Shown piece after piece: positions 35,299 through 51,398 of a DNA stretch of 64,000 nt. Location of the stretch: positions 1 to 64,000 of the forward strand of contig CACHHD010000003.1 in NCBI GenBank assembly GCA_902579605.1, in the 5' to 3' direction. The position numbers and the translations under genes are program-made. The notes under the pieces are model-generated. The model ran no database searches. It was not told where the DNA came from and saw only the letters and a program-made list of their open reading frames with translations. How positions within the stretch are numbered: position 1 is the first letter of the stretch; the number at the start of each line of letters is the position of its first letter. The stretch comes from an uncultured Pelagibacteraceae bacterium (lineage in GTDB: Bacteria > Pseudomonadota > Alphaproteobacteria > Pelagibacterales > Pelagibacteraceae).

Positions 35299-35730
35299 AT
35301 GAAAAATATACTTTTTGTTTGTACTGGAAACTCAGCAAGAAGTATTATTGCAGAAACAATTATGGACAATAAATATAAAAAAAAATTTAAAGCTTTTAGT
35401 GCTGGTAGCAAACCATCTGGAAAAATAAATGAACATGTAAAGAAATTTCTTGAAAACAGAAACTTTGATCTATCTGGTTATTATTCAAAAAATTTTAATG
35501 ATTTTTTAAAAAAGGATATAAAATTTTACCAGGTATTTACAGTTTGTTCGAATGCAAATAATGAGGTTTGTCCTGTATGGCCTGAAAAAGATAAAATAAT
35601 CCACTGGGATTTGGATGATCCCGTTGTAAAAATTCAAAAAGCTAAAAGCGATGATGAAATAAATTCAATAATTGCTAACACTTACAACATAATTGAAAAA
35701 AAAATAGAAGATTGGATTAAAGATGCGTAA
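35299..35730 (+). CDS. arsC: Low-molecular-weight phosphatase-fold arsenate reductase (ArsC-like)
   Basis: P-loop FVCTGNSARS; Cys pair VCSNANNEVCPVWPE. Confidence 0.82.
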   Translation: MKNILFVCTGNSARSIIAETIMDNKYKKKFKAFSAGSKPSGKINEHVKKFLENRNFDLSGYYSKNFNDFLKKDIKFYQVFTVCSNANNEVCPVWPEKDKIIHWDLDDPVVKIQKAKSDDEINSIIANTYNIIEKKIEDWIKDA

Positions 35731-36376
35731 TAAAATTTTTTTAGCTGAATTTATAGGTTGTGCTTTCTTAGTGATGATCATCGTAGGCTCAGGGATTATG
35801 GCTGAAAATTTAACTAATGATACTGCTTTAATGTTAATTGCAAATACATTGGCAACAGGTGCCGGTTTATTTGTTCTTATTGCAAGTCTTGCGGATGTTT
35901 CTGGAGCACATTTCAATCCAGTCGTTACAACATGTATGTTTTTTGTGGGCAAAACGAAAAGAAAAGATTTAATAAATTATTATACAGCACAGATTTTAGG
36001 TTGTATGTTGGGAGTAATGCTTGCAAACTTTATGTTTGATCAAAGTATAATTGAACTTTCCAGAAAAATGAGGCCCGGCATAAATATTTTTACTGCTGAA
36101 ATAATTGCGACTTTTGGATTAATTTTTATTATTTTTGGAACAATTAAAAGTGGAAAAATTGTAGTCGCATCATCTGTTGGGGCATTTATTTCGGCTGGAT
36201 ATTGGTTTACGTCTTCTACTTCTTTTGCTAATCCCGCAGTTGCTATAGCCAGAACCTTTACAGACACGTTTACTGGGATAAACTTTATCAATACACCGAG
36301 TTACATTTTAGCTGAAGTTTTAGGCGGATATATTGCTTACAAGATCGTCAGAATTTTATTTCTTAACAAAAGATAA
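35723..36376 (+). CDS. Aquaporin / MIP family channel (AqpS-like by context)
   Basis: LAEFIGCAFLVMIIVGSG, GAHFNPVVT (first NPA variant), SFANPAVAIARTFTDTF (second NPA). Confidence 0.88.
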   Translation: MRNKIFLAEFIGCAFLVMIIVGSGIMAENLTNDTALMLIANTLATGAGLFVLIASLADVSGAHFNPVVTTCMFFVGKTKRKDLINYYTAQILGCMLGVMLANFMFDQSIIELSRKMRPGINIFTAEIIATFGLIFIIFGTIKSGKIVVASSVGAFISAGYWFTSSTSFANPAVAIARTFTDTFTGINFINTPSYILAEVLGGYIAYKIVRILFLNKR

Positions 36377-36535: not shown

Positions 36536-38041
36536 TTAAGAATAAATAATATTAGAATCGACATTCATCTCGCTTGCTAGATTTTTAAGTCTTTTTGTTA
36601 CTTGTTTTGAGACTATATCGCTGTGATTGTTGGGTATTTTCAAAAAAATAGTCTTATTTCTTTTATAAATTTTAAATTCATCTAATAACAAAGAAGACAT
36701 ACTTGTAAGTGACTCAGCTAACCGTAAAGCAGATCCTACTTGCTTTGAGGATAAAATTTCGTTGTTATTTAAGATGCTTAGAAACTGATAATTCGGATTG
36801 TATTTTAAACCACAATGTCTCCAAAAGCTTGCTGATGCAACTTTTACTCTATCTCTATGTTCTAGTTTTAGCAGTGGAGTGTTTAACACTTCCATAAAAA
36901 CTAGCTCTGCTTTTTGAAAAGCGCCCAAACCCCAATCCATTTTACTTAGGATACAAGCTAAGGTTAGTAATCTTCGATTAAAATATTCATTGTCTTCAAA
37001 TAATGGTGAAATAAAATTAAAATATTTCTCAAAACTTTTTCCATAGTCCCCTTTTTTAAAAGATATACCATCAGTTTTTAATTTAAAAATTTCATCCTCA
37101 CTCATTCCATGATTTATAATTGTATTCATATGTCCTTCCCTTAATCCACTTATCGAACAAATAACTTTTGAAGGACTTGCTGCTTCAATTATTTCTTTGA
37201 GAATTATGGAACTAAAAGGTAAGTAGGGAGTTCTAGATTTAGTAATATATTCCATTGATTTCAGAGAAGATTTGTTAAATTTTGAAATTTTGTTTAAGTA
37301 TTTAACCGCTGAGTCTTTAGTTAACTTATATTGATGCAAAATATGTAATGGATGTTGTTCTTTAAAAAGATGATATTTAAATAATGACCTCCAAGTCCCT
37401 CCTACTAAATAAATATTTTTAAATTTCTTTTTAAAAAGCCATTTTTCATCTTTTAAAAGTTTTTTAACATATTTTCCTAAATTTCTCTTTTTTATAATAG
37501 GATTATTTTCAAGTCTTAATACTCCAAGAGGTAAAGAAGTTGTTTCAAAAATTTGATTTTTAGAAACTCTGGCAAGTTCTAAACTTCCACCTCCTAAATC
37601 TGCAACTAGTCCATCTACTTCATCAAATCCTACCATTACACCATTAGCTGATGTTCTTGCTTCTTCCTCACCAGATAATACTAGTGGCTTTTTATCAAAT
37701 ATTCTTTTAATTTCTTCTAAAAATTCACTTGCATCAGTAGCCTCTCTAAAAGCTGCAGTTGCAATAATTTCTAAATCTAGAACTCCTGAGATATCTAAAA
37801 TTTCTTTAAATCTATTTAAAACTTTTAAAGAGCTTTTAATTCCATCTGGGTTTAATTTTTTTGATTTATCTAAATTCTTTCCAAGTTTGCAGACTGCTTT
37901 TTCATTAAATACTGGAATTGGAGAAATTTTAAAATCGTCATATATGAGCATTCTTACTGAATTTGATCCAAGATCTATTATGGCTTGTTTAGACTTTTTA
38001 CTAGACTGAATTTTAAAAAGATTTTTAAATTCTGATTTCAT
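36536..38041 (-). CDS. ppx: Ppx/GppA exopolyphosphatase family
   Basis: AIIDLGSNSVRMLIYD, ATAAFREATDASEFLEEI, LVADLGGGSLELARV. Confidence 0.9.
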   Translation of the reverse strand: MKSEFKNLFKIQSSKKSKQAIIDLGSNSVRMLIYDDFKISPIPVFNEKAVCKLGKNLDKSKKLNPDGIKSSLKVLNRFKEILDISGVLDLEIIATAAFREATDASEFLEEIKRIFDKKPLVLSGEEEARTSANGVMVGFDEVDGLVADLGGGSLELARVSKNQIFETTSLPLGVLRLENNPIIKKRNLGKYVKKLLKDEKWLFKKKFKNIYLVGGTWRSLFKYHLFKEQHPLHILHQYKLTKDSAVKYLNKISKFNKSSLKSMEYITKSRTPYLPFSSIILKEIIEAASPSKVICSISGLREGHMNTIINHGMSEDEIFKLKTDGISFKKGDYGKSFEKYFNFISPLFEDNEYFNRRLLTLACILSKMDWGLGAFQKAELVFMEVLNTPLLKLEHRDRVKVASASFWRHCGLKYNPNYQFLSILNNNEILSSKQVGSALRLAESLTSMSSLLLDEFKIYKRNKTIFLKIPNNHSDIVSKQVTKRLKNLASEMNVDSNIIYS

Positions 38042-40170
38042 TTAATAATTCTTAATATTTCAGGTTTCATTTTCATTATAGATTTTCCTCGACCTGATAA
38101 GCTTGGATAACTCATAAAATAATTATGAGCTGAAAAGGCTTTTTTCATTAAAAGTGGTTTTCCCTTATGATAATTCCCTAAGCTATCTAAATGCCAGCTT
38201 TGAGAGTTATCAAGAAAATTAGCAACCATAATTTGATCTAAAATCTGTTCATGAACAGTATTGTTTTCTATTGGGACCAAAATTTCTACTCTTCTATCTA
38301 AATTTCTAGGCATCAAATCAGCTGATCCAATATATACTAAATTTTGCCTACTTGGCATAGGAGAACCATTAGCAAAACAATATATTCTAGAGTGCTCCAA
38401 AAACCTTCCAATAATACTTTTAACCTCGATATTTTCAGATAAACCTTTAACTCCAGGCCTTAAACAACAAACGCCCCTAACAGATAATTTTATTTTCACT
38501 CCTTTACAAGATGCCTCATAAAATTTTTTAATTATTTGTGGATCTACCAATGAATTCATTTTAGCCCATATTTCAGCATCTTTTCCTTTTAAAGAATTGC
38601 TAATTTCGTTATCTATTTGTTTCTCTAGGAATAGTCTTGAATTAATTGGAGATAATATAATTTTATTTAGCTTGCTAGGCTTTGCGTAACCAGTAACAAA
38701 AGTAAAGAATTTTTCAACATCCTTCGCTATTAGTGGATCAGAAGAAAATAGAGATAAATCTGTATAGATTTTTGCGTTAATAGGATGATAATTTCCTGTT
38801 CCTAGATGAACGTAGGTTTTAGTTTTTCCTTTTTCTTTTCTTAAAACTAAACTAGCTTTTGCATGCGTTTTATATTTTGCAAATCCATAAACAATCTGAA
38901 CACCTGCTTTTTCTAGTTTACGGGATAATTCAATATTTTTTTCTTCATCAAATCTAGCTTTGATTTCAACAACTGCTGTAACTGCTTTTCCATTTTCAGC
39001 AGCCGCAATTAAAGCTTTCACTATCGGAGAGTCAGGAGTTGTTCTATAAAGAGTTTGTTTAATAGCAATTACTTTTTCATCCTTAGCTGCAGTCTCTAAA
39101 AATTGAATAACAACATCAAATGTTTCAAATGGATGATGAACAACAAAATCTTTGGATTTGATTGCTGAAAAAAATTTATGATTAAATTCTTCTAATCTTT
39201 CTACAGGTCTTGGGTTAAATTTTTTAAATCTTAAGTGTGGAGATTTTTTCTTACAGATTTCATCTATATCTTGAATTCCAACTATTCCCTCTACTTCATA
39301 GACGTGTTCGTCTAACACATCTAATTTTTTACTGAGAAAATCTTTTAAATTATTGCTTGATCCTTTAAGAATTTCTAATTTAACGATACTACCTCTTCTT
39401 CTTTTTTTAATCGCCTTTTCAAAGTACCTTACAAGATCTTCAGCTTCGTCATCTATCTCTATGTCGCTATCTCTAATAATTTTAAAAGGAAGAAATGATA
39501 CAAGTTCGTGCTCAGGAAATATACTTTCAGAAAAGTAACTTATTAAATCTTCTATCGTGATGAATTGATCAGATTGTCCATCTATATCTATAAACTTTGG
39601 AAGAGCCCTAGGTATAACAATAATCACATTTAAATTTCTTTTGTTTTTTACTTTTTCTAGTTTCATCAAAATTGCTTGTCCTTTATTGGCAATAAAGGGA
39701 AAGGGATGAGAGGGGTCGATCGCTGTAGGTGTAATCACTGGATAGACGGTTTCATTAAAATAATCTCTTAAAAAATCTATGGATTTTTTATCCAAATCTT
39801 TTATTTTTTTTAAATAGATTTTCTCTTTTTTTAGTTCATTTAAAAGTTGTTTAAATGAGTCGTTTTGTTTTATTAATAAATCTTTAGTTTTTAAAACTAC
39901 TCTAGATAATTGTTCTTCTGAAGTTAAACCATCTGCACTTAATTGATCAAAATCGTCTTTTATTTGATTATATAATCCTGCAACTCTTACCATAAAAAAT
40001 TCGTCAAGATTAGTTCCAGCAATTGATAAAAATTTAACTCTCTCAAAAAGAGGGTTTTTAACATTTTTAGACTCTTCCAAAACTCGGTCATTAAATTGTA
40101 GCCAAGAAATTTCTCTATTGATTAGCTGCTGCTCTGAAGACAATGCTTTTGTTAAATCTATTTTTGACAT
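38038..40170 (-). CDS. ppk: Polyphosphate kinase (start trimmed to MSKIDLTK)
   Basis: LINREISWLQFNDRVLEE, FLSIAGTNLDEFFMVRVAGL, IKQTLYRTTPDSPIV, VHLGTGNYHPINAKIYTDLSLFS. Confidence 0.96.
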   Translation of the reverse strand: MSKIDLTKALSSEQQLINREISWLQFNDRVLEESKNVKNPLFERVKFLSIAGTNLDEFFMVRVAGLYNQIKDDFDQLSADGLTSEEQLSRVVLKTKDLLIKQNDSFKQLLNELKKEKIYLKKIKDLDKKSIDFLRDYFNETVYPVITPTAIDPSHPFPFIANKGQAILMKLEKVKNKRNLNVIIVIPRALPKFIDIDGQSDQFITIEDLISYFSESIFPEHELVSFLPFKIIRDSDIEIDDEAEDLVRYFEKAIKKRRRGSIVKLEILKGSSNNLKDFLSKKLDVLDEHVYEVEGIVGIQDIDEICKKKSPHLRFKKFNPRPVERLEEFNHKFFSAIKSKDFVVHHPFETFDVVIQFLETAAKDEKVIAIKQTLYRTTPDSPIVKALIAAAENGKAVTAVVEIKARFDEEKNIELSRKLEKAGVQIVYGFAKYKTHAKASLVLRKEKGKTKTYVHLGTGNYHPINAKIYTDLSLFSSDPLIAKDVEKFFTFVTGYAKPSKLNKIILSPINSRLFLEKQIDNEISNSLKGKDAEIWAKMNSLVDPQIIKKFYEASCKGVKIKLSVRGVCCLRPGVKGLSENIEVKSIIGRFLEHSRIYCFANGSPMPSRQNLVYIGSADLMPRNLDRRVEILVPIENNTVHEQILDQIMVANFLDNSQSWHLDSLGNYHKGKPLLMKKAFSAHNYFMSYPSLSGRGKSIMKMKPEILRIIK

Positions 40171-40183
40171 AAAATTAAAAAAT

Positions 40184-40690
40184 ATGTTTAAATTATATGC
40201 TATGAGACACGCTAAATCTAGTTGGGATTTCCCGGATTTAGTAGATTTTGAAAGACCTTTAAACAAAAGAGGTATTGAAAGTTCAAAAAAGATTTGTGAA
40301 AGATTTGTTAAAAATAAAATATTTTTTGATTTAATTTTAACTTCATCTTCTAAAAGAACATTGGAAACACTTAGTTATCTAAATGGGCCAGCAGAAAAAG
40401 CAAAAATTTTAAAGTTAAAAGAATTGTATAATACTTCAGAAATCGAGATTTTAAAGATAATAAAAAAAGTAGATGATAAATATAAAAGTTTACTGTTAAT
40501 CAACCATATGCCATCAATTAAGGATTTCTGTAGCAAAATTTGTCTAAACCAAAATTCAAATTTTTATAAAGACATGTGTCATAAATTTTCTACAGCTGCT
40601 GTTGCGGAGTTTGAGTTTAAATTTAAATCTTGGAAAGATTTAGATTTAGGCGGGAAAATTACAAATTTTATTCGCCCTAAAGACATTTAA
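40184..40690 (+). CDS. SixA-like phosphohistidine phosphatase (start trimmed to MFKLYAMRHAKSS)
   Basis: MRHAKSSWDFPDLVDFERPLNKRG, SSSKRTLETL, LINHMPSIKDF. Confidence 0.9.
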   Translation: MFKLYAMRHAKSSWDFPDLVDFERPLNKRGIESSKKICERFVKNKIFFDLILTSSSKRTLETLSYLNGPAEKAKILKLKELYNTSEIEILKIIKKVDDKYKSLLLINHMPSIKDFCSKICLNQNSNFYKDMCHKFSTAAVAEFEFKFKSWKDLDLGGKITNFIRPKDI

Positions 40691-41370
40691 CCATCTAAAG
40701 AATATCCTGAAGACCTTACGGTTCTAATTAAATCTTTTTTTCCGTCAATATTTATTGCTTTTCTTACTCTTCTAATATGGACATCAATTGTTCTGGACTC
40801 CACATAAACATTATCACCCCAAACATTATTTAAAAGTTGTTCTCTGGAGTAAACTCTTTTAGGATTTTTAATTAAGAAATCTATAAGCTTAAACTCCGTA
40901 GGACCTAGCTCAACTTCTTTTTCTCCTCTAAAAACTCTTTTTTGCGCTCGATCAACTTTTAAGTCTTCAAAAATAACCACGTCCTCAACCGCATTTGGTT
41001 TAGCACGTTTCAATAATGCGTTTACTCTAGCAATTAATTCTTTCTGACTAAATGGTTTTGTAACATAATCATCAGCGCCTGTTTTAAAACCCTTCAATTT
41101 ATCTTCTTCTTCTCCCTTAGCCGTAAGCATAATTATTGGAATATTTTTAAGTAAATTAATTCTCTTCAAATTTCTACAAACTTCTATTCCTGAAATGTCT
41201 GGAAGCATCCAATCTAATAATATTAGGTCCGGATTTTGATCTTTAATACTTCGAATGGCATCTTCTCCATTTAAAGCATAATTTACTTTGTGTCCTTCTT
41301 TTTCTAGATTGTACTTTAATAAAGTTACTATTGGCATTTCATCTTCTACTATGAATAGATTTGCCTTCAT
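40687..41370 (-). CDS. phoB: Phosphate regulon response regulator
   Basis: FIVEDEMPIVTLLKYNLEKEGH, LLDWMLPDISGIEVCR, KTGADDYVTKPFS, C-terminal winged helix; adjacent phoU-pst. Confidence 0.94.
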   Translation of the reverse strand: MKANLFIVEDEMPIVTLLKYNLEKEGHKVNYALNGEDAIRSIKDQNPDLILLDWMLPDISGIEVCRNLKRINLLKNIPIIMLTAKGEEEDKLKGFKTGADDYVTKPFSQKELIARVNALLKRAKPNAVEDVVIFEDLKVDRAQKRVFRGEKEVELGPTEFKLIDFLIKNPKRVYSREQLLNNVWGDNVYVESRTIDVHIRRVRKAINIDGKKDLIRTVRSSGYSLDG

Positions 41371-41371
41371 T

Positions 41372-42052
41372 CTAACCTTTCGGTCTTTCTCCTTCGAGAT
41401 AGTCGCCGGTAATTAAAAAGTAAACTTGTTCAGCGATATTAGTGGCATGATCACCAATTCTCTCAATATTTTTTAACATGAAAAGTAATTGCGTTATTTT
41501 ATTTATATCCTCTTTCTTTTTTTCTAAATGTTTTATAGCGGCCTCCATATTTGTATTGGTCAATTGGTCTATCTCCTCATCTGAATTCCAAACATTTTCA
41601 GCGGTATCTTTTGCTCTATGTAGATAAGCATTAAGGACAGAATTTACTTGCTTGGCCGCTTTAAGACCGGCTATCTCCAAATTTTTAATAATATCACTTG
41701 GTAAATCGGTTCCAACTTTTAGAGTTCTTTTAGAAATATTTTTTGCTAGATCGCCTATTCTTTCTAAATCAGATGAAACTTTTAAAGCAACAACTGTCTC
41801 TCTTAAATCTATCGCCATCGGCTGTCTTAAGGCAATTAAATTTACGACTTGTTCTTCGATATGGAGTTCGTATTTATCTGTTTTTTCATCATCTTTTATA
41901 GACTTGTCTGCTAAAGAAGTATCTTTTTTTACTAATGATTGAATTGTTTGTTCAAGCTGTTTTTCAACACTTGCTCCCATTTTGACTATAGTATCCTTCA
42001 AGAGTTGCAGCTGTTCTTCGTAAGATTTTACTATATGTGATTTTTCACTCAT
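41372..42052 (-). CDS. phoU: Phosphate transport regulator PhoU
   Basis: Two PhoU repeats: LIALRQPMAIDLRETVVALKVSSDLERIGDLAKNI and MLKNIERIGDHATNIAE. Confidence 0.95.
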   Translation of the reverse strand: MSEKSHIVKSYEEQLQLLKDTIVKMGASVEKQLEQTIQSLVKKDTSLADKSIKDDEKTDKYELHIEEQVVNLIALRQPMAIDLRETVVALKVSSDLERIGDLAKNISKRTLKVGTDLPSDIIKNLEIAGLKAAKQVNSVLNAYLHRAKDTAENVWNSDEEIDQLTNTNMEAAIKHLEKKKEDINKITQLLFMLKNIERIGDHATNIAEQVYFLITGDYLEGERPKG

Positions 42053-42807
42053 TAACCAAACCTTCCTGTAATATAATCCTGAGTTTGTTGGTTGTCAGGA
42101 TTTTTAAATATTTTTTCTGTATCGCCAAATTCTATAAGTTTTCCGAGGTGGAAGAAACCTGTTTTTTGAGATACCCTTGCTGCTTGAGACATCGAGTGGG
42201 TAACTATCACTATTGTGTGTTCTTTTTTTAAATCATCAATTAATTCTTCAATTTGAGCAGTAGCTATAGGATCTAGAGCTGAGCAAGGTTCGTCCATTAA
42301 AATCACTTCCGGACTAACTGAAATAGCCCTAGCTATACATAATCTTTGTTGTTGACCTCCTGATAAACCAGTGCCAATTTCATCTAATCTGTCTTTTACC
42401 TCTTCCCAAAGAGCGGCTTTTTTTAAACTCATCTCAACAATCTGATCTAATTCACTTTTAGATTGAGCCATACCATGAATTGTAGGTCCATAAGAGACGT
42501 TTTCATAAATTGTTTTTGGAAATGGATTTGGTTTTTGAAACACCATACCTACATTCTCTCTTAGTCTTACAACGTCCAGTTTTCTCGAATTGAGTTCCAA
42601 TTCATCCATTTTAATGCTTCCTTCAACTTTACAAATATCTATTACATCATTCATTCTATTTAAACATCTTAGAAAAGTTGACTTTCCACATCCTGATGGA
42701 CCGATTAAAGCAGTCACTTCTTTATCCATTATATCTAGTGAAACATCGAACAAAGCCTGCTTAGAGCCATAAAAAACATTTACATTTTTTGCGCTTATCT
42801 TTGTCAT
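42052..42807 (-). CDS. pstB: Phosphate ABC transporter ATPase (start trimmed to MTKISAKN)
   Basis: [61 protein letters not shown]. Confidence 0.96.
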
Positions 42808-42808
42808 G

Positions 42809-44080
42809 TTAGTTCCATTTCCTCTCAAATTTATGTCTTATAATCTGAGCCGCTAAATTCATCAATATTAAAAATCCAAGTAAAACCATTATACAAGCAC
42901 TTACTTTTTCAACAAACCCTCTTTCTGCTGATTCACTCCAAATGTAAATTTGAACGGGCAAACTTGCAGCTGGGTCTACAGGAGTGCCTGGGATAGTGTT
43001 TACAAAAGCAACCATACCTATAAGTATAAGCGGTGCTGTTTCTCCAAGAGCTTGTGCCAATCCAATAATAGTGCCTGAAAGAGTACCGGGCATTGAAAGA
43101 GGTACAGTGTGATGCATCGTTGTCTGCATGTTACTTGCTCCCATCGCTAAAGCAGCCTCTCTTATACTTGGGGGAACTGCTTTTAAAGAAGCCCGCGCAG
43201 CAATAATAATTGTGGGAAGTGTCATTAAGGATAAGGTTATTCCTCCAACTAAAGGTGTTGATCTTGGCAAATTAAATACTGCTAATAAAACCCCTAAACC
43301 TAAAAGACCAAAAACTATTGATGGTACAGCAGCTAAGTTGTTTATATTAACCTCGATAAAATCAGTAAACTTATTTTTAGGGGCAAATTCCTCTAAATAT
43401 ATTGCTGCTAAAACTGCAATGGGAAAAGAAAAAGCTAAACATACTAAAATACTAAATACTGTTCCCATAAACGAACTTGCTATACCAGCTAGTTCGGCTT
43501 CTCTAGAGTCTGGATTAGTGAAAAAGCTTAAATTGAATTTTGATAAAATATCACCTCTCTCATTCAACATGTCATATATTTTCAATTGATAATCATTAAC
43601 TCTTCTATCTTCCTCTGGAATATCACGAGGATAATTTCCTTTATGGACTTGGTCTAAATCATCTGAAGCCGTTAATCTTATAGGAACTATTTTTCCTAGA
43701 AGACTTGGATTTTTTAAAAGATGATTTTTAACTTCTTGTTCATAGGTAAATGCCACCATTTGAATAAGTTGACGATCGTCTTCCTCAGGAAGAGAGGGAT
43801 CTAAACGAGTCATTGCTTTGTAGGCTATTTCATAATAATCGGCGTTCTCCAAATCTTCTAAGCTCGGATTATCTGTCTCAATTAACATTAATTCTTTATC
43901 GTAATGAACTTCCGTAACAATCCATGTTTTTTGGAAAGCTGTGTAACCTTTTGAAAAAATTTTATACATAAAAACAGCTAAAAATAGCAGAGCTAAACCT
44001 ATTGCAATTTGTCCAAATAATTTAAAATTTGCTTCTGCCCTGTAACGTTTATTTAAGAGTTTTCTCTTAGCCTCATTCAT
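42809..44080 (-). CDS. pstA: Phosphate ABC transporter permease PstA (long N-terminal form)
   Basis: [44 protein letters not shown]. Confidence 0.93.
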
Positions 44081-45449
44081 ATTTTTCCCTATATTTTTTC
44101 ACAACTGTTAAAGCAATAACATTTAAAAAAAGTGTTACTACAAATAAAGATATTCCTAAGGCAAAAGCTGCCTGAGTTTTTGGATCTCCAAATTGTTGGT
44201 CGCCAATAAGTATAACTACTATTTGAGCTGTAATAGTAGACGTGGACTCTAAAGGGTTGGCTGTTAAATTTGCAGCTAATCCAGATGCCATCACTACGAT
44301 CATAGTCTCACCGACTGCTCTGGAAACAGCAAGTAAAATAGATCCGACTATCCCCGGTAATGCTGCAGGAAATATAACTTTCTTAATAGTCTCTGATTTC
44401 GTAGCACCCATCGCATAACTTCCATCCCTTAAATTTTGTGGAACTGCTGATATAACGTCATCGCTTAAACTTGATATAAAAGGGATTATCATAACCCCCA
44501 TAACAGCTCCTGCTGCAAGTGCACTTTCTGATGAAACTTCTAATCCTAAAGAATTTCCAATTTCTTTTACGAAGGGACCTACAGTGAGGGCAGCAAAAAA
44601 TCCATATACTACGGTTGGGATACCTGCTAAAATTTCAATTATAGGCTTAGCATATTTTCTAACTTTTCTTGTTGCATACTCTGCGAGATAAATTCCGCTT
44701 AACAACCCAACTGGGATTGCTACACACATTGCTATAAATGCAATGAAAAAAGTTCCAGCAAATAATGGTACCGCTCCAAATGCATCTTTCATTAATTCAG
44801 GATCTGGTTGACCATCTCTCACAAATGTTTTTGCCGGATACCAATGTGTTCCAAAAATGAAATCAAATATCCTGACGGATTGAAAAAATCTTATGGCTTC
44901 AAACAAAAGTGAAAATACAATTCCTATTGTTACAAGAACTGCTGCCAAAGAAGCTGTAAATAAAACCCATTTTAAAAATATTTCTACTGGTTCCCTCATT
45001 CTGTTATTCTTTTTAATAGATTGATAAGCATAGCTTAATGATAAAATTAAAGCTGCTAAGACAATTACGATCTTAGCGTTATTAGCCATATTTTTAATTT
45101 GGATGTATTTACCTGCAGAATTATCTAAAAAATTATTAATATCTCCTGTATACGTTCCTAATGCTAAAGCCTTTACTTTTGTATAAATAAGTTGAAGCTC
45201 ATTCTTAGTTAAATTTTGATCCAAATAATCTGCTAAAATAAAATTTTTTACTATTGTTGGTTCAAACACTGACCATAAAGAAAAAATTATAAGTGCCGGT
45301 GCTGCGCACCAAATCGCAAGATAATAACCATAAAATTTTGGAAGTGCTGTTAGTCTTTGTGAAGATTGAATAATTGTTGCTTTTTTTCTACCAAAATAAT
45401 AGCTGGAGAAACCTAAAAGTAGAATAAGACTTATAAGAACTAAATTCAT
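44073..45449 (-). CDS. pstC: Phosphate ABC transporter permease PstC (long N-terminal form)
   Basis: GSYAMGATKSETIKKVIFPAALPGIVGSILLAVSRAVGETMIVVMASG. Confidence 0.93.
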   Translation of the reverse strand: MNLVLISLILLLGFSSYYFGRKKATIIQSSQRLTALPKFYGYYLAIWCAAPALIIFSLWSVFEPTIVKNFILADYLDQNLTKNELQLIYTKVKALALGTYTGDINNFLDNSAGKYIQIKNMANNAKIVIVLAALILSLSYAYQSIKKNNRMREPVEIFLKWVLFTASLAAVLVTIGIVFSLLFEAIRFFQSVRIFDFIFGTHWYPAKTFVRDGQPDPELMKDAFGAVPLFAGTFFIAFIAMCVAIPVGLLSGIYLAEYATRKVRKYAKPIIEILAGIPTVVYGFFAALTVGPFVKEIGNSLGLEVSSESALAAGAVMGVMIIPFISSLSDDVISAVPQNLRDGSYAMGATKSETIKKVIFPAALPGIVGSILLAVSRAVGETMIVVMASGLAANLTANPLESTSTITAQIVVILIGDQQFGDPKTQAAFALGISLFVVTLFLNVIALTVVKKYREKYE

Positions 45450-45465
45450 TTTTCAAGCTCCAGTT

Positions 45466-45492
45466 AAAAAAAGGGGGCCGAAACCCCCTTTT
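45466..45492 (-). terminator. Terminator-like GC-rich hairpin between pstS and pstC
   Basis: Minus strand AAAAGGGGG tttcgg CCCCCTTTTTTT; stem 45473-45477 / 45484-45488. Confidence 0.8.
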
Positions 45493-45511
45493 AATTTTTT
45501 AAAAAGTAAAA

Positions 45512-46516
45512 TTACTTTTTAGGCGGCATATTTACTAATTTAACAGCATTAGTTCTAGATGTCTTGTATAACTTACCATCTAATGGAACTAAACCGATAT
45601 CAGTTAAGTAGCCTTTTTTACCAATAGACTTTTTACCTGTGAATTCTTTTACGAATTCGTGTAAACCAGGAATTACGCCTACGTGAGCCTTTTTAACGTA
45701 GAAGAATAAAGGTCTAGCAACAGCGTAGCTATAGTCTTGAATAGAGCTTAAGCTTGGTTGACCACCTTCGATACTTGCAGCTTGCAATTTATCTTTTGCA
45801 GCTAAGAAATAACTGAACCCAAAGAAACCAAACATTTCTTTGTCCGCAGCTAATTTTTGAATAATAAGTGAGTCATTTTCACCTACTTCAATTGCAGCAC
45901 CGTCTTCTCTTAATGCTTTATATTTTGCACCAGCAGCTTTTGATGCATCATCAATACCTTTTTTCATTACTAATGAGTTCCAAGCATCCCTAGTTCCAGA
46001 TGTTCCTGGTGGAACCATGATTTTGATATCATAATTTGGTAATGAAGGATCGATGTCGCTCCACTTTTTATATGGGTTTGGTACAAGTTTACCATCTTTA
46101 GCAACTTCTTTTGCTAATGCTGCCCATAATTGTTTTTTTGTAAAGTTTACTGGTTTTTGATCTTTAGAAAATGCAAGAGTGATACCATCGTTACCTACTG
46201 TAATCTCCACAATTTCGTTAACACCATTTTTTTGACATAGCGCATACTCTTTAGCTTTCATAGCTCTAGAAGCATTAGTTATATCTGGATGTTCTGCACC
46301 GACTCCTGCGCAGAATAGTTTTGCTCCACCACCAGTTCCTGTAGATTCAATTACTGGAGTCTTAAATTTTCCAGATGAACCAAATCTTTCTGCAACAATT
46401 GTTGCATATGGGAATACTGTTGAAGAACCAACTATTTTAATTTGATCTCTAGCTTGAGCAGAAGTAACGATTAACATCGTTAATAATGAAGCTAAAGCGA
46501 TTGTTAGTTTTTTCAT
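45512..46516 (-). CDS. pstS: Phosphate-binding periplasmic protein
   Basis: Signal peptide; DQIKIVGSSTVFPYATIVAERFG, ESTGTGGGAKLFC, VPPGTSGTRDAWN. Confidence 0.95.
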   Translation of the reverse strand: MKKLTIALASLLTMLIVTSAQARDQIKIVGSSTVFPYATIVAERFGSSGKFKTPVIESTGTGGGAKLFCAGVGAEHPDITNASRAMKAKEYALCQKNGVNEIVEITVGNDGITLAFSKDQKPVNFTKKQLWAALAKEVAKDGKLVPNPYKKWSDIDPSLPNYDIKIMVPPGTSGTRDAWNSLVMKKGIDDASKAAGAKYKALREDGAAIEVGENDSLIIQKLAADKEMFGFFGFSYFLAAKDKLQAASIEGGQPSLSSIQDYSYAVARPLFFYVKKAHVGVIPGLHEFVKEFTGKKSIGKKGYLTDIGLVPLDGKLYKTSRTNAVKLVNMPPKK

Positions 46517-46598: not shown

Positions 46599-46619
46599 TG
46601 TTACAGATATGTTAAAAAA
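46599..46619 (-). promoter_or_regulatory. Candidate Pho box upstream of pstS
   Basis: Minus strand TTTTTTAACATATCTGTAACA: heptamers TTTAACA/TGTAACA with 4-nt spacer (11-nt period); 19/21 identical to the element at 50482-50502. Confidence 0.7.
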
Positions 46620-46642: not shown

Positions 46643-47257
46643 TTAGTTGAATCTTCTTGTTATTTTCACGTCCTCATAAGATGAAGCTAGGTTACCTTGG
46701 CAAGTAAAGGGTCTTACTTTATTTAACACTGCATATTTACTAGTAGGTTTCAAAGTAATTTCTAGCTTTACGAACTCCACGAGCTGTTTACTTAATCTTT
46801 CATCATTTCTCCAGCTCGCCCATTTGCTTGGAGGTGTAAAAATATTAGTTAAATATGATGCGGCTCTACGGTAAGTTGTGTTTGAATATCCTTCACTATT
46901 TAACAAGTTTTCCTTAACAGACGTGTATATTTTTCTACATGTGATCGAATCAGCCATGTAAGATTTTTTATTTAAATTTCTCTCCATTGGCACTGATACA
47001 ATTAATAAAATTTGGTCAGCTGTTGAGGAATAAAGAGCCTCAGTATAAATATTTGCTGGCAAATATTTAAATTCTCTTATGTCTATAAATGGGACAACTG
47101 CTTTAAGATCATCTTTTAGTCTTAACAATCCTAAATCAAATACTGTTAAAGTTTGATTTTTTAAAATTTTTTCAATCTGTTGTTCAGCTTTTACAAATGA
47201 ATTTAAAGATAATAAAATCAAAAATATAAAAAATAATTGTTTTATTTTATTGATCAT
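46643..47257 (-). CDS. Predicted secreted protein of unknown function between phoR and pstS (start at MINKIKQLFF)
   Basis: Signal peptide MINKIKQLFFIFLILLSLNSFVKAEQQ; co-directional with phoR and pst operon. Confidence 0.75.
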   Translation of the reverse strand: MINKIKQLFFIFLILLSLNSFVKAEQQIEKILKNQTLTVFDLGLLRLKDDLKAVVPFIDIREFKYLPANIYTEALYSSTADQILLIVSVPMERNLNKKSYMADSITCRKIYTSVKENLLNSEGYSNTTYRRAASYLTNIFTPPSKWASWRNDERLSKQLVEFVKLEITLKPTSKYAVLNKVRPFTCQGNLASSYEDVKITRRFN

Positions 47258-47297
47258 AATTTGATTATTATACCAAATTACACGTTTTAATTGAATA

Positions 47298-48497
47298 CTA
47301 AAAAACTGGTAAATGTACTGATATTTGTGTCCCTTCACCAACTTTACTTTTAATTTCCAATTCTCCTCTATGTTGAATGATTCTATGACGACAAATCGCA
47401 AGGCCAAGTCCTGTGCCTCCTACCTCTCTACTTTTTTTGGCATCAACTCTATAAAATCTTTCTGTTATTCTAGAAATATGTTCTGCCGGTATTCCAATTC
47501 CTTGGTCAGAAATAGAAATTTTATAAGAATTATTTAATAACTTTCCATCACCTTTTTCAATTTTAATTTCTATAGATTTTTTATTTTCTGAATACTTAAT
47601 GCTGTTGTCTATTAAATTAGAAAAAATATCTACCAAAGCTTCAAAGTTTCCTTTAACAAAAAAATCAGATTGTATCTTATTGGTGAATTTAAAGTTGAGT
47701 AATTTATTTTGATGAATATCTTCTACAGAATTAAAAATTTCTTTTAAATTAACTTTATCCTGTGGTTGAATATGTTCTTCAAGTTCAATTTTGCTTAATG
47801 ACAATAAATCTTTTATCAAATTTTCCATTCTGTCAGCTTGTTCTAACATTATTGGTATAAACTTTTTTTGAGCTTCAGGATCATTTTTTGCATGCCCATT
47901 TATGGTTTCTAAAAACCCTTTGATCGATACTAATGGAGTTTTTAATTCATGACTAACATTTGCTACAAAATCTGATTTGAATTTTTGTGCTTTTACAATT
48001 TCAGTATAATCTTTTAAAAAAAGATTTATGGTATCTGGATCATCAGAAAAAATACTTTCGCCGATCATGATATAAACTTTAAAAAATTGAAAGGAAGGCT
48101 GACTCAACTCTAAATCCATATTAATAGTTTTTCTTTTATTTACAACTAAATCAATATTTTGTAGCAGATCAGGAACTCTTAATATTGTAGCAATATGTTT
48201 ACCAAGACTTTCTTTGCCAAATTTATTTTTAGCGCTTGGATTTAAATACTTTATATTTTTATATTTATCTAAAATTATTAAATAATCATCTAATTGATTT
48301 AATATTGCTCCTTTCTGAGGGTCGTCCTCAATATCTTCGTTGGTAATATCTTGAACTTCTTGATATAAATTTTCAGTTTGTTTTTGATCTCTAACTTCAC
48401 TTCTGGCATCAAATCCGGCCTTGATGAATTTTGCAGAAACTAGAATAACAACGATTGAAATAATTGCAGCTAGCGATAAAAATAATAATGTCATCAT
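47298..48497 (-). CDS. phoR: Phosphate regulon sensor histidine kinase
   Basis: FVANVSHELKTPLVSIKGFLETI, NLIDNSIKYS, DQGIGIPAEHISRITERFYRVD, GGTGLGLAICRHRI. Confidence 0.9.
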   Translation of the reverse strand: MMTLLFLSLAAIISIVVILVSAKFIKAGFDARSEVRDQKQTENLYQEVQDITNEDIEDDPQKGAILNQLDDYLIILDKYKNIKYLNPSAKNKFGKESLGKHIATILRVPDLLQNIDLVVNKRKTINMDLELSQPSFQFFKVYIMIGESIFSDDPDTINLFLKDYTEIVKAQKFKSDFVANVSHELKTPLVSIKGFLETINGHAKNDPEAQKKFIPIMLEQADRMENLIKDLLSLSKIELEEHIQPQDKVNLKEIFNSVEDIHQNKLLNFKFTNKIQSDFFVKGNFEALVDIFSNLIDNSIKYSENKKSIEIKIEKGDGKLLNNSYKISISDQGIGIPAEHISRITERFYRVDAKKSREVGGTGLGLAICRHRIIQHRGELEIKSKVGEGTQISVHLPVF

Positions 48498-48586: not shown

Positions 48587-49618
48587 TCAATTAGGTGCAG
48601 TGTTAGCTAAAAATATTTTAGCACAGTTCTCCCAAGTATATTTTTTAGCTATTTCTTTACAATCGTCTCTATTTAATTTTAAAGCTTCTAGAGCGGCTAC
48701 TTTTAAATCTTTATTTAAAACACCACCATTCGTTCCCTCTAAAATATCTTTTGGACCTGTAACTGGATAGGCTGCAACAGGTGTTCCGCATTGTAAACCT
48801 TCAATAATAACTATACCAAAAGTATCTGTTAAGCTCGGCATAACAAAAACATCTGCTGATGCAAAGTAAGATGCTAACTCACCATTTGTTTTCTCGCCTT
48901 TAAAAATGACATTAGGAAATTCTTGTTTTAATTTTTTTAAATCTGGCCCCTTTCCTACTACAATTTTAGTTCCTTCTAGATCAAGATTAAGAAAAGCTCT
49001 AATATTTTTCTCAATGGAAACTCTACCTACATATAGCCAAATAGGTCTTTTATATTCTAAATTAATGCGCCTGGGGTTTTTAAATGCTCCATGATTGGCC
49101 CCTCGTGTCCAAACAGTGAGTTTTTCTGGATCAAAACCAATTTTTTTTAAATCCTCTTTCATTGATTTTGTAGTTACTAAAGTTTTGTAAGCGGCTGAGT
49201 GAAAGTTTTTGAGAAATTTTTGAGGTATTTTAATAGGTATAAAAGGTGCGTAAAGTTTAATATATTTATCGAAAGACGTGTGGTAACTGGTTGTAAATTT
49301 TAAATTATTTTTTAAACAATATCTTCTTGCAAAGTAACCCAGCGTATCTTCTGTGGCTATATGGATAATTAACTTTTCTTTATTTTTTTTAGCAAATTCT
49401 AACTCTTTTTGAATCATTCTTCCAACTTTAGGCCATACATTTAAAGCAATTTTAATATCATTATATTTAGGCAACGGAACAGTCAAAAAATTTACTGGAG
49501 TTATAAAGTTAACAGTATGCCCAAGTTTTTTTAATTCTTCTTTTAATTGTTCAAGGGTTCTCACTACACCATTTATTACCTGTTCTTTGCAAGCTCCAGT
49601 GACTATTAATATTCTCAT
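48587..49618 (-). CDS. Glycosyltransferase family 4, candidate diacylglycerol glycosyltransferase (Agt-like)
   Basis: MRILIVTGACKEQVINGVVRTLEQLKEELKKLGH, WLYVGRVSIEKNI, VFVMPSLTDTFGIVIIEGLQCGTPVAAYPVTGPKDIL; follows PlcP-like gene. Confidence 0.85.
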   Translation of the reverse strand: MRILIVTGACKEQVINGVVRTLEQLKEELKKLGHTVNFITPVNFLTVPLPKYNDIKIALNVWPKVGRMIQKELEFAKKNKEKLIIHIATEDTLGYFARRYCLKNNLKFTTSYHTSFDKYIKLYAPFIPIKIPQKFLKNFHSAAYKTLVTTKSMKEDLKKIGFDPEKLTVWTRGANHGAFKNPRRINLEYKRPIWLYVGRVSIEKNIRAFLNLDLEGTKIVVGKGPDLKKLKQEFPNVIFKGEKTNGELASYFASADVFVMPSLTDTFGIVIIEGLQCGTPVAAYPVTGPKDILEGTNGGVLNKDLKVAALEALKLNRDDCKEIAKKYTWENCAKIFLANTAPN

Positions 49619-49621
49619 GGA

Positions 49622-50437
49622 TTATTTATTAACGATTTTTAAATATGGTTCGTAATTTACAACTTCTTCTCTTATTTTGTCCCAATCTATAACTTCCATT
49701 CTACCATCAAAATGCTCAACTAAAAATGTTGCTCCCTCAACCCAGTCGCCACAGTTTAGGTAATTTATTCCATCAAGATTTTGGTTTGCAGCATGATGTA
49801 TATGACCACATATAATACCATCAGCTTTTTTCTTCTTTGCGTAATTTGCTAAGGTCTTTTCATAGTCACCAATATACTTAACTGCATTTTTAACTTTATG
49901 TTTTAGATATTTTGCTAAAGACCAATTTGGCTTTTTGAATAATCTTCTGATGAAATTTATTACTACATTAAATTCTAACAGAAAGCTGTATGCTACTGAT
50001 CCAACTTTTGATAACCAAGGTGCATATTTCATTACACCGTCCCATGCATCGCCGTGTACTACTATATATTTTTTATTATCACTTGAAACATGTAAGCAGC
50101 GGTTTATAACTTCGATACCACCAAAATGAAGTGGTAAAAATTTTCTAAAAACGTCATCATGATTACCAATTATATATTTTACTTTTGTTCCGTGTCTTGC
50201 TTTTCTTAAGGTTTTTTGAATAACGTCATTATGTTCCTGAGGCCAATAAAAATTATTTTTCAAAGCCCATATATCAATAATGTCACCTACGAGATATAAA
50301 TTTTCTGATTTTGAATGCTTATAAAATTCAAGTAGCTTATTTGCAGAACTTTTTCTGTGTCCTAAATGAACATCACTTATAAAAATGCTTTTATAATTTA
50401 AAATTTTTCCTTTAGATTTTGTTTGAATTGTTTCCAT
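49622..50437 (-). CDS. plcP: LpxH-like metallophosphoesterase, candidate phospholipase C PlcP (start trimmed to METIQTK)
   Basis: SIFISDVHLGHRKSSANKLLEF, LVGDIIDIWAL, YIIGNHDDVFRKFLP, VVHGDAWDG, ICGHIHHAANQ, LNCGDWVEGATFLVEH. Confidence 0.82.
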   Translation of the reverse strand: METIQTKSKGKILNYKSIFISDVHLGHRKSSANKLLEFYKHSKSENLYLVGDIIDIWALKNNFYWPQEHNDVIQKTLRKARHGTKVKYIIGNHDDVFRKFLPLHFGGIEVINRCLHVSSDNKKYIVVHGDAWDGVMKYAPWLSKVGSVAYSFLLEFNVVINFIRRLFKKPNWSLAKYLKHKVKNAVKYIGDYEKTLANYAKKKKADGIICGHIHHAANQNLDGINYLNCGDWVEGATFLVEHFDGRMEVIDWDKIREEVVNYEPYLKIVNK

Positions 50438-50481
50438 AAATTTAATAAAACGAATCTCTAGTAACAGTTGAATCATATAAA

Positions 50482-50502
50482 TGTTACAGAATTGTTAAAA
50501 AA
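50482..50502 (-). promoter_or_regulatory. Candidate Pho box upstream of plcP-agt
   Basis: Minus strand TTTTTTAACAATTCTGTAACA, 19/21 identical to the pstS element; 45 nt upstream of plcP ATG, abutting the start of divergent 50502 CDS. Confidence 0.7.
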
Positions 50503-51398
50503 TGATTAAGAAACTAAATTTTGCAGTTATATTCAACGCCAATGCAGCAGGCGGTAGAAAACTTAAGTTAATTAATAAGGTCATTTATCTTCTAGAGAAA
50601 AATCACACTGTAGAACTTTTTAAAACTCAAAGTGAAGAACATGCGAGAAAAGTGTTTAAAGAATTGTCTAATAAACAATTTGATCGATTAGTATTTGCTG
50701 GAGGTGACGGAAGTGTTTGCTTTGGTATCAATGAAATGTTTAAAAGTGACAATTTAAAAGACAAATTAGTTGGATACATACCTGCAGGTACTGCAAATAT
50801 TCTGCAAATAGAAACTCAAATTAAGAAAAAGGCTGAGGAGATTTACAATGTCCTCGTATCAGATAATCATAAGAAAATTTCATTAGCAAAAATAAATGAT
50901 AAGTATTTTTTCTTAATGGCTGGTGTAGGTTTTGACTCTAGAATTGTTGAGTCCATAAATACAAATATTAAAAAGTATCTCGGAAAAGTAATTTTTGCTT
51001 TTAAAGGTTTTCAGCATTTTTTATTTTTAAAGAATAATAAAATGGAGGTTGAGTTAGAAAATGAAAAAATAATGGCTGATTGGATTTTATGTACTAATTC
51101 AAAATACTATGCTGGTCCCCATTCTATTACAAACGATACAAATATATTTGAAAACAAGATAGTGGCTTACATATTTAAAGACCTAACCAGAATAAAATTG
51201 CTTTACTATGTTTGGTTAATATTGACTAAGGGTGACTTAGGTCCAGCAAAAAGTGTGATCAAAAAAGAACTGGACAGATTAAAAATAAATGGTGTTAACA
51301 ATAAAGTTCTATCTCAGGTTGACGGTGAAAATTGTGGTTACGTAAACAGTCTTGAAATCCAAAAAACAGACAGGTTTATCAATTTATTAGTTCCGTAA
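50502..51398 (+). CDS. Diacylglycerol/lipid kinase family protein
   Basis: AVIFNANAAGGRKLKLINKV, RLVFAGGDGSVCFGINEMF, LVGYIPAGTANILQIE (DAGK catalytic motifs). Confidence 0.88.
   Translation: MIKKLNFAVIFNANAAGGRKLKLINKVIYLLEKNHTVELFKTQSEEHARKVFKELSNKQFDRLVFAGGDGSVCFGINEMFKSDNLKDKLVGYIPAGTANILQIETQIKKKAEEIYNVLVSDNHKKISLAKINDKYFFLMAGVGFDSRIVESINTNIKKYLGKVIFAFKGFQHFLFLKNNKMEVELENEKIMADWILCTNSKYYAGPHSITNDTNIFENKIVAYIFKDLTRIKLLYYVWLILTKGDLGPAKSVIKKELDRLKINGVNNKVLSQVDGENCGYVNSLEIQKTDRFINLLVP

Follow-up and report, generated by a model that had tools for sequence, protein, structure and literature searches.

Our analyses of an island of phosphate genes in an uncultured Pelagibacteraceae bacterium point to a PhoB-controlled lipid-renovation module, in which a phospholipase (PlcP) and a glycosyltransferase (Agt) are joined by a kinase predicted to return diacylglycerol (DAG) to phospholipid synthesis, a reading to which we assign a probability of about 0.78. 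The island lies in a 64,000-nucleotide stretch, referred to here as the window; the genome assembly it belongs to comprises 974 kb and is 80.5% complete. The open reading frame (ORF) list and Pfam matches confirm three ORFs directly 5' of phoR-pstSCAB-phoU-phoB, and the analyses show gene identity, order, conservation, motifs and the Pho-box-like site. The features are as follows.

48587-49618, minus strand: agt, GT4 glycosyltransferase, 343 aa (Pfam GT4 domains PF13439 and PF00534).
49622-50476, minus strand: ORF of plcP, predicted intracellular metallo-phospholipase C, 284 aa (Pfam Metallophos PF00149/PF12850).
49622..50437, minus strand: shorter form of plcP with the likelier start, an internal Met at 50437.
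50482..50498, minus strand: Pho-box-like site TTAACAATTCTGTAACA, facing plcP, ending 4 bp before the dgk ATG and conserved in congeners.
50502-51398, plus strand: dgk, YegS/BmrU/DgkB-type lipid kinase gene, divergent from plcP, 298 aa (DAGK_cat PF00781, 75 bits).
47298..48497, minus strand: phoR, phosphate sensor kinase (TIGR02966, E 4e-88, 295 bits, under the cut-off of 334).
46643..47407, minus strand: conserved ORF separating phoR from pstS; its actual start is probably close to 47256.
46599..46615, minus strand: second of the genome's two exact matches to TTAACANNTCTGTAACA, the Pho-box-like site TTAACATATCTGTAACA, directed towards pstS.
40687..46516, minus strand: pstS, pstC, pstA, pstB, phoU and phoB (ORFs; Pfam PBP_like_2, ABC_tran, PhoU, Response_reg).
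36536..40266, minus strand: ppx and ppk, polyphosphate turnover, in the same phosphate island (Pfam).
35299..36376, plus strand: low-molecular-weight phosphatase (wzb-like) and GlpF-like channel, at the island edge (Pfam LMWPc, MIP).

The start of plcP is more likely the Met at 50437, because the alignment with the protein of G024, a divergent congener, begins only at residue 14. With that start, 64 bp separate plcP from the kinase gene.

In the model that we propose, phosphorylated PhoB would occupy the box at 50482-50498 during phosphate starvation and activate plcP-agt-phoR. PlcP would then cleave phosphatidylglycerol (PG) and phosphatidylethanolamine (PE) to DAG, and Agt would glycosylate the DAG to a phosphorus-free glycolipid. 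The reactions of these two enzymes are established in relatives (PMC4796936, PMC8231724, PMC9239053); the regulation, the substrate and direction of the kinase, and the activity of the window's particular Agt allele, we infer. The divergent kinase most likely converts DAG to phosphatidic acid, capping the pool of free DAG and feeding phospholipid synthesis. A broader and more speculative proposal, to which we would give somewhat less than even odds, is that PlcP, Agt and a Pho-regulated kinase constitute a conserved three-gene DAG-control module across non-Rhizobiales Alphaproteobacteria, and that in this SAR11 lineage a deep, recombining allele of Agt with rebuilt donor/acceptor loops (the D-allele, described below) has taken the place of the usual one and makes a different glycolipid.

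The kinase matches DAGK_cat with 75 bits against a cut-off of 23.6, carries the GGDG and DGE motifs, and has DgkB (2QV7, E 1.6e-18) as its nearest solved structure. The fold and both motifs are shared with DgkB, YegS and BmrU (PDB 2QV7, 2BON, 3T5P), but the SAR11 protein scores under the curated subfamily model TIGR00147 (97.3 versus 118.65 bits) and is therefore classed only as a DAGK_cat lipid kinase. It is the sole DAGK_cat gene found in the 80.5% complete assembly, and membrane-type DgkA was not found in 97 of 98 genomes of the family. Among 61 sampled congeners, plcP is present in 29, the kinase in 30 and both in 27; the two genes adjoin head to head in all 27, and in both plcP-only congeners the locus sits at a contig end. 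Because the pair is adjacent in every congener that has both, the arrangement is not due to chance. Congeners and the sister genus alike keep the gene order kinase, plcP, agt, phoR, pst.

The association extends well beyond the family. Class-wide, a divergent kinase gene lies directly upstream of plcP in 49 of 109 loci (~45%), spanning 30 of 59 families and 37 of 78 genera. Named loci give the head-to-head arrangement in 25 of 80 cases, the families being Azospirillaceae, Rhodospirillaceae, Novispirillaceae, Acetobacteraceae, Paracoccaceae, Thalassospiraceae and Pelagibacteraceae; a linked kinase was found in none of the named Rhizobiales, beta- or gammaproteobacterial loci among these 80. The kinase is thus a conserved divergent partner of plcP-agt, present in roughly half of the alphaproteobacterial families sampled with these genes. 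Linked kinases retain GGDG without exception (70/70) and cluster on a tree built from frame-checked ORFs, with 13 label changes versus 29 in shuffles, although the tree does not show them to form a single clade. The earlier note on this DNA had suggested, as an inference, that the kinase could recycle DAG to phosphatidic acid as an opposing arm of the pathway; this predicted enzymatic role is now better supported, because of the class-wide head-to-head linkage and the enrichment of Pho-box-like sites described below.

YegS-type kinases can act on other lipid substrates. The kinase at the locus may do so as well, or may convert DAG from other sources to phosphatidic acid, without a role in renovation. 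Linked kinases outside Pelagibacteraceae are only 23-29% identical to the window's, and two congeners keep a kinase gene apart from the lipid genes. One of them, G024, has a second pst-phoR island (contig C81, locus L065) with a 51% identical divergent kinase and without plcP-agt, so that here the kinase goes with the phosphate island even in the absence of the lipid genes. The other, G029 (contig C3, locus L066), retains, close to glpF and gcrA, a kinase gene of 57% identity, with plcP, agt and the pst operon missing at the site. We nevertheless regard a separate role as the less likely reading, given the repeated head-to-head linkage with plcP-agt, the enrichment of kinase-facing Pho-box-like sites, and the invariance of Asp145, which is kept in 70 of 70 linked but only 15 of 41 unlinked kinases.

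How might the two divergent transcription units be controlled? A scan of the 974-kb assembly for the pattern TTAACANNTCTGTAACA gave exactly two perfect matches, 5' of pstS and plcP and each facing its gene; as these same sites had supplied the pattern, the count measures rarity and is not an independent discovery. The box consists of 11-bp repeats, TTTTAAC-N4-CTGTAAC, and its likeness to a Pho box lies in the repeats and consensus only; allowing up to 3 mismatches, the classical E. coli Pho box, CTGTCAT-N4-CTGTCAT, did not occur in the vicinity of the genes. Matches to TTAACANNTCTGTAACA with 2 mismatches were no commoner than those to the reversed control, and for this reason the box analysis was limited to exact matches. 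One such weak match, with 2 mismatches and of a kind not above the control rate, lies at 40295-40311, just 5' of ppk. In a comparison of loci, kinase-facing Pho-box-like sites were present in 26 of 73 linked loci and 12 of 112 kinase-free loci (Fisher p 7e-5), and in 21 of 61 linked loci when Pelagibacteraceae were left out (p 2e-4); both p values are optimistic, because the loci share ancestry and are not phylogenetically independent, and the site scores reflect agreement with a consensus.

A good box facing the kinase, TTGTAACACAACTGTAAC, is present in the sister genus (L223, L229-L233) and suggests induction there. In the window's genus the sole box faces plcP, lies downstream of a TATAAA-like element and extends into what is presumed to be the promoter or leader of dgk, an arrangement that runs counter to a jointly induced module and by which dgk might be repressed rather than induced. 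PhoB could in that case repress dgk while activating plcP-agt, with the single box, so close to the dgk ATG, serving as a reciprocal switch and the kinase becoming active upon the return of phosphate. Set against the kinase-facing box of the sister genus, we think a switch of this kind has a minority share of the probability, about equal to that of a kinase with a separate role.

What is the relevance of the unusual Agt? The window's glycosyltransferase clusters on a tree with Pelagibacteraceae Agt proteins encoded downstream of plcP (63-73% identity), belongs to the Agt/GTcp family by sequence, and would be expected to act on DAG. Its counterpart GTcp from HTCC7211 has been characterised biochemically, with 15 positions studied (PMC8231724), and all 15 fall exactly on matching residues of Pelagibacter Agt. 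Thirteen of the 14 GTcp residues that were compared are kept in the window, including G16, G85, H104, R163, R190, K195, D256, T257, F258, G259 and E264, and the C-terminal donor-site residues are all conserved. The exception is Gly82, replaced by Asp91 within the motif ATEDTLG (usually ATEGP[LI]G). This is a counterpoint to the module as proposed, since the G82A substitution almost abolished GTcp activity (PMC8231724). In a 205-row alignment, the column holds Gly in 196 rows and Asp in 9, all of the latter being copies of the same divergent form, the D-allele. This allele also has a distinct N-terminal motif (TGACKEQVINGVVRT versus TDAWxPQxNGVVRT); eight residues are inserted at 72-79, and other columns that are otherwise nearly invariant are altered as well.

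On a tree the D-allele branches deeply, as the sister group of every other agt sampled from the genus (support 87/100). Among 169 genomes of the genus, 68 carry agt; the D-allele is found in 15 (96-100% identical) and the other allele in 53 (69-73%), with no intermediates. Two genomes with different alleles, G015 (D-allele) and G006, are 98.9% identical in pstS DNA but only 70.5% in agt DNA, which points to allelic replacement by recombination, and related strains have apparently exchanged the agt allele in this way. Comparisons among D-allele genomes gave dN/dS ratios of 0.07-0.12, which places the protein under purifying selection. An AF2 model of the D-allele protein adopts a GT-B fold with a pLDDT of 92, lower in the altered loop 11-20 (74), and MshA is the nearest solved fold. 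Loss of the near-invariant D8, W10, P12, G91 and P92 could also be taken to mean that the divergent allele is a decaying or non-functional copy; we find this improbable in view of the dN/dS values, the lack of stops in all 15 genomes, the intact C-terminal donor-site residues and the confidently predicted fold. The D-allele enzyme is more readily understood as active, with putative GTcp-type transfer of Glc, Gal or GlcA from a UDP-sugar to DAG, and the rebuilt N-terminal region may reflect a changed use of donor or acceptor.

The phosphoesterase is, judging from its sequence, PlcP rather than LpxH. It scored 35.9 and 47.4 bits against two LpxH equivalog models with cut-offs of 190.35 and 134, and E. 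coli LpxH, the positive control in the same run, reached 388.9 and 364.3 bits. The metal motifs D-x-H, GD, GNHD, H and GHxH are all found, with GNHD, HGD and GHIH invariant, and D22, H24, D52, N92, H93, H128, H212 and H214 are invariant across 34 homologues; at GNHD, solved LpxH structures (5K8K, 5B49) show GNRD. Homologues 43-70% identical are encoded beside agt across Proteobacteria, and proteins 77-90% identical occur in uncultured Pelagibacteraceae and 'SAR11 cluster bacterium PRT-SC02', which marks the host as a bacterium of SAR11 type. Of the 109 class-wide loci, one of them entered twice, 100 have agt directly 3' of plcP. A tree groups the protein with PlcPs of Proteobacteria and at a long distance from E. 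coli LpxH; because the LpxH branch is saturated, the test is carried by the score cut-offs and not by branch position. The best solved-structure and fold match is nonetheless LpxH, which fits a distant relative without a solved member of its own family. Mn-dependent hydrolysis of PG and PE to DAG is a predicted activity of the window protein.

The earlier note had read the phosphoesterase and GT4 pair beside phoR-pst as the PlcP/Agt pathway, and this reading is borne out by the failure of the LpxH models and by membership of the glycosyltransferase in the Agt/GTcp family; grouping of the phosphoesterase with true LpxH, which the note had named as contrary evidence, was not observed. The search for a separate lpxH or lpxI that it had called for found LpxI elsewhere in the assembly (LpxI_C at G000:C8:26273, 128 bits, cut-off 25), the sole other Metallophos gene being YmdB-like in appearance. 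That the locus instead serves lipid A/LPS biosynthesis, with a true LpxH and an LPS-core RfaG, is scarcely credible despite the LpxH fold match and the use of these names for a HIMB59 island (PMC10734472), and we reject it on the sub-threshold LpxH model scores and the presence of LpxI, to which may be added the GNHD motif, the GTcp-family glycosyltransferase, and the occurrence of the gene in only about half of the congeners (many of the genomes being incomplete), which ill fits an essential lipid A step.

Carini et al. (2015) reportedly described SAR11 lipid renovation by the PlcP-Agt of 'Ca. Pelagibacter' HTCC7211, with induction of a four-gene cluster. Lipid renovation by PlcP-Agt in SAR11 and other marine bacteria is already published (PMC4796936; PMC8231724), and the window shares with these systems the enzyme families, the direct succession of plcP and agt, and a Pho-box-like promoter. 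Unlike them, it places the genes in one run with phoR-pst, encodes a divergent allele of Agt with Asp for the Gly82 of HTCC7211 GTcp, and adds a divergent kinase that is absent from the discussion in PMC4796936 and PMC8231724. The two-enzyme pathway is likewise found in Rhizobiales, including Methylosinus trichosporium OB3b, where plcP-agt has a mutant phenotype (PMC9239053), but the named Rhizobiales loci sampled are without the divergent kinase. In Pseudomonas putida BIRD-1, DagK and PlcP were counted among the lipid-remodelling proteins enriched under phosphate depletion, although no adjacency of DagK to plcP was described (PMC5082522).

The closest inventory is that of islands fGIp-C to E in HIMB59, which belongs to another alphaproteobacterial order than the window's host and has the same set of Wzb, GlpF, ppx, ppk, DGK, LpxH-like, RfaG-like, PhoR, PhoB and Pst genes (PMC10734472). 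There the gene set was drawn as 'LpxH/RfaG/DGK', the glycosyltransferase and DGK were considered to have no direct P-related function, and neither plcP nor remodelling was mentioned (PMC10734472). The literature text searched (figures and Carini et al. 2015 being outside its scope) holds no account of the kinase as a conserved plcP-agt partner and none of the Agt D-allele. The SAR11 pathway is known, and the kinase partnership and the exchanged D-allele go beyond the published text searched.

Lipid renovation saves phosphorus in some of the most abundant bacteria of the ocean. If the linked kinase controls free DAG, models with two enzymes, PlcP followed by Agt, are incomplete for many non-Rhizobiales Alphaproteobacteria, the well-studied Rhizobiales having no linked kinase, at least in the sampled loci. 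Should the exchanged Agt allele yield a different lipid, allele swaps would change the chemistry of the membrane surface within a single SAR11 genus, with possible effects on grazing and on the attachment of phages. Our results also correct the LpxH/RfaG reading applied to the comparable HIMB59 islands.

On one congener contig (G030:C6; L031, L032, L062), both plcP, with internal stops, and dgk, which is split, appear broken, through either decay or sequence error. The ORF at 46643..47407, between phoR and pstS, matched no Pfam family; it encodes an apparent signal peptide, and its position is conserved in Pelagibacteraceae relatives.
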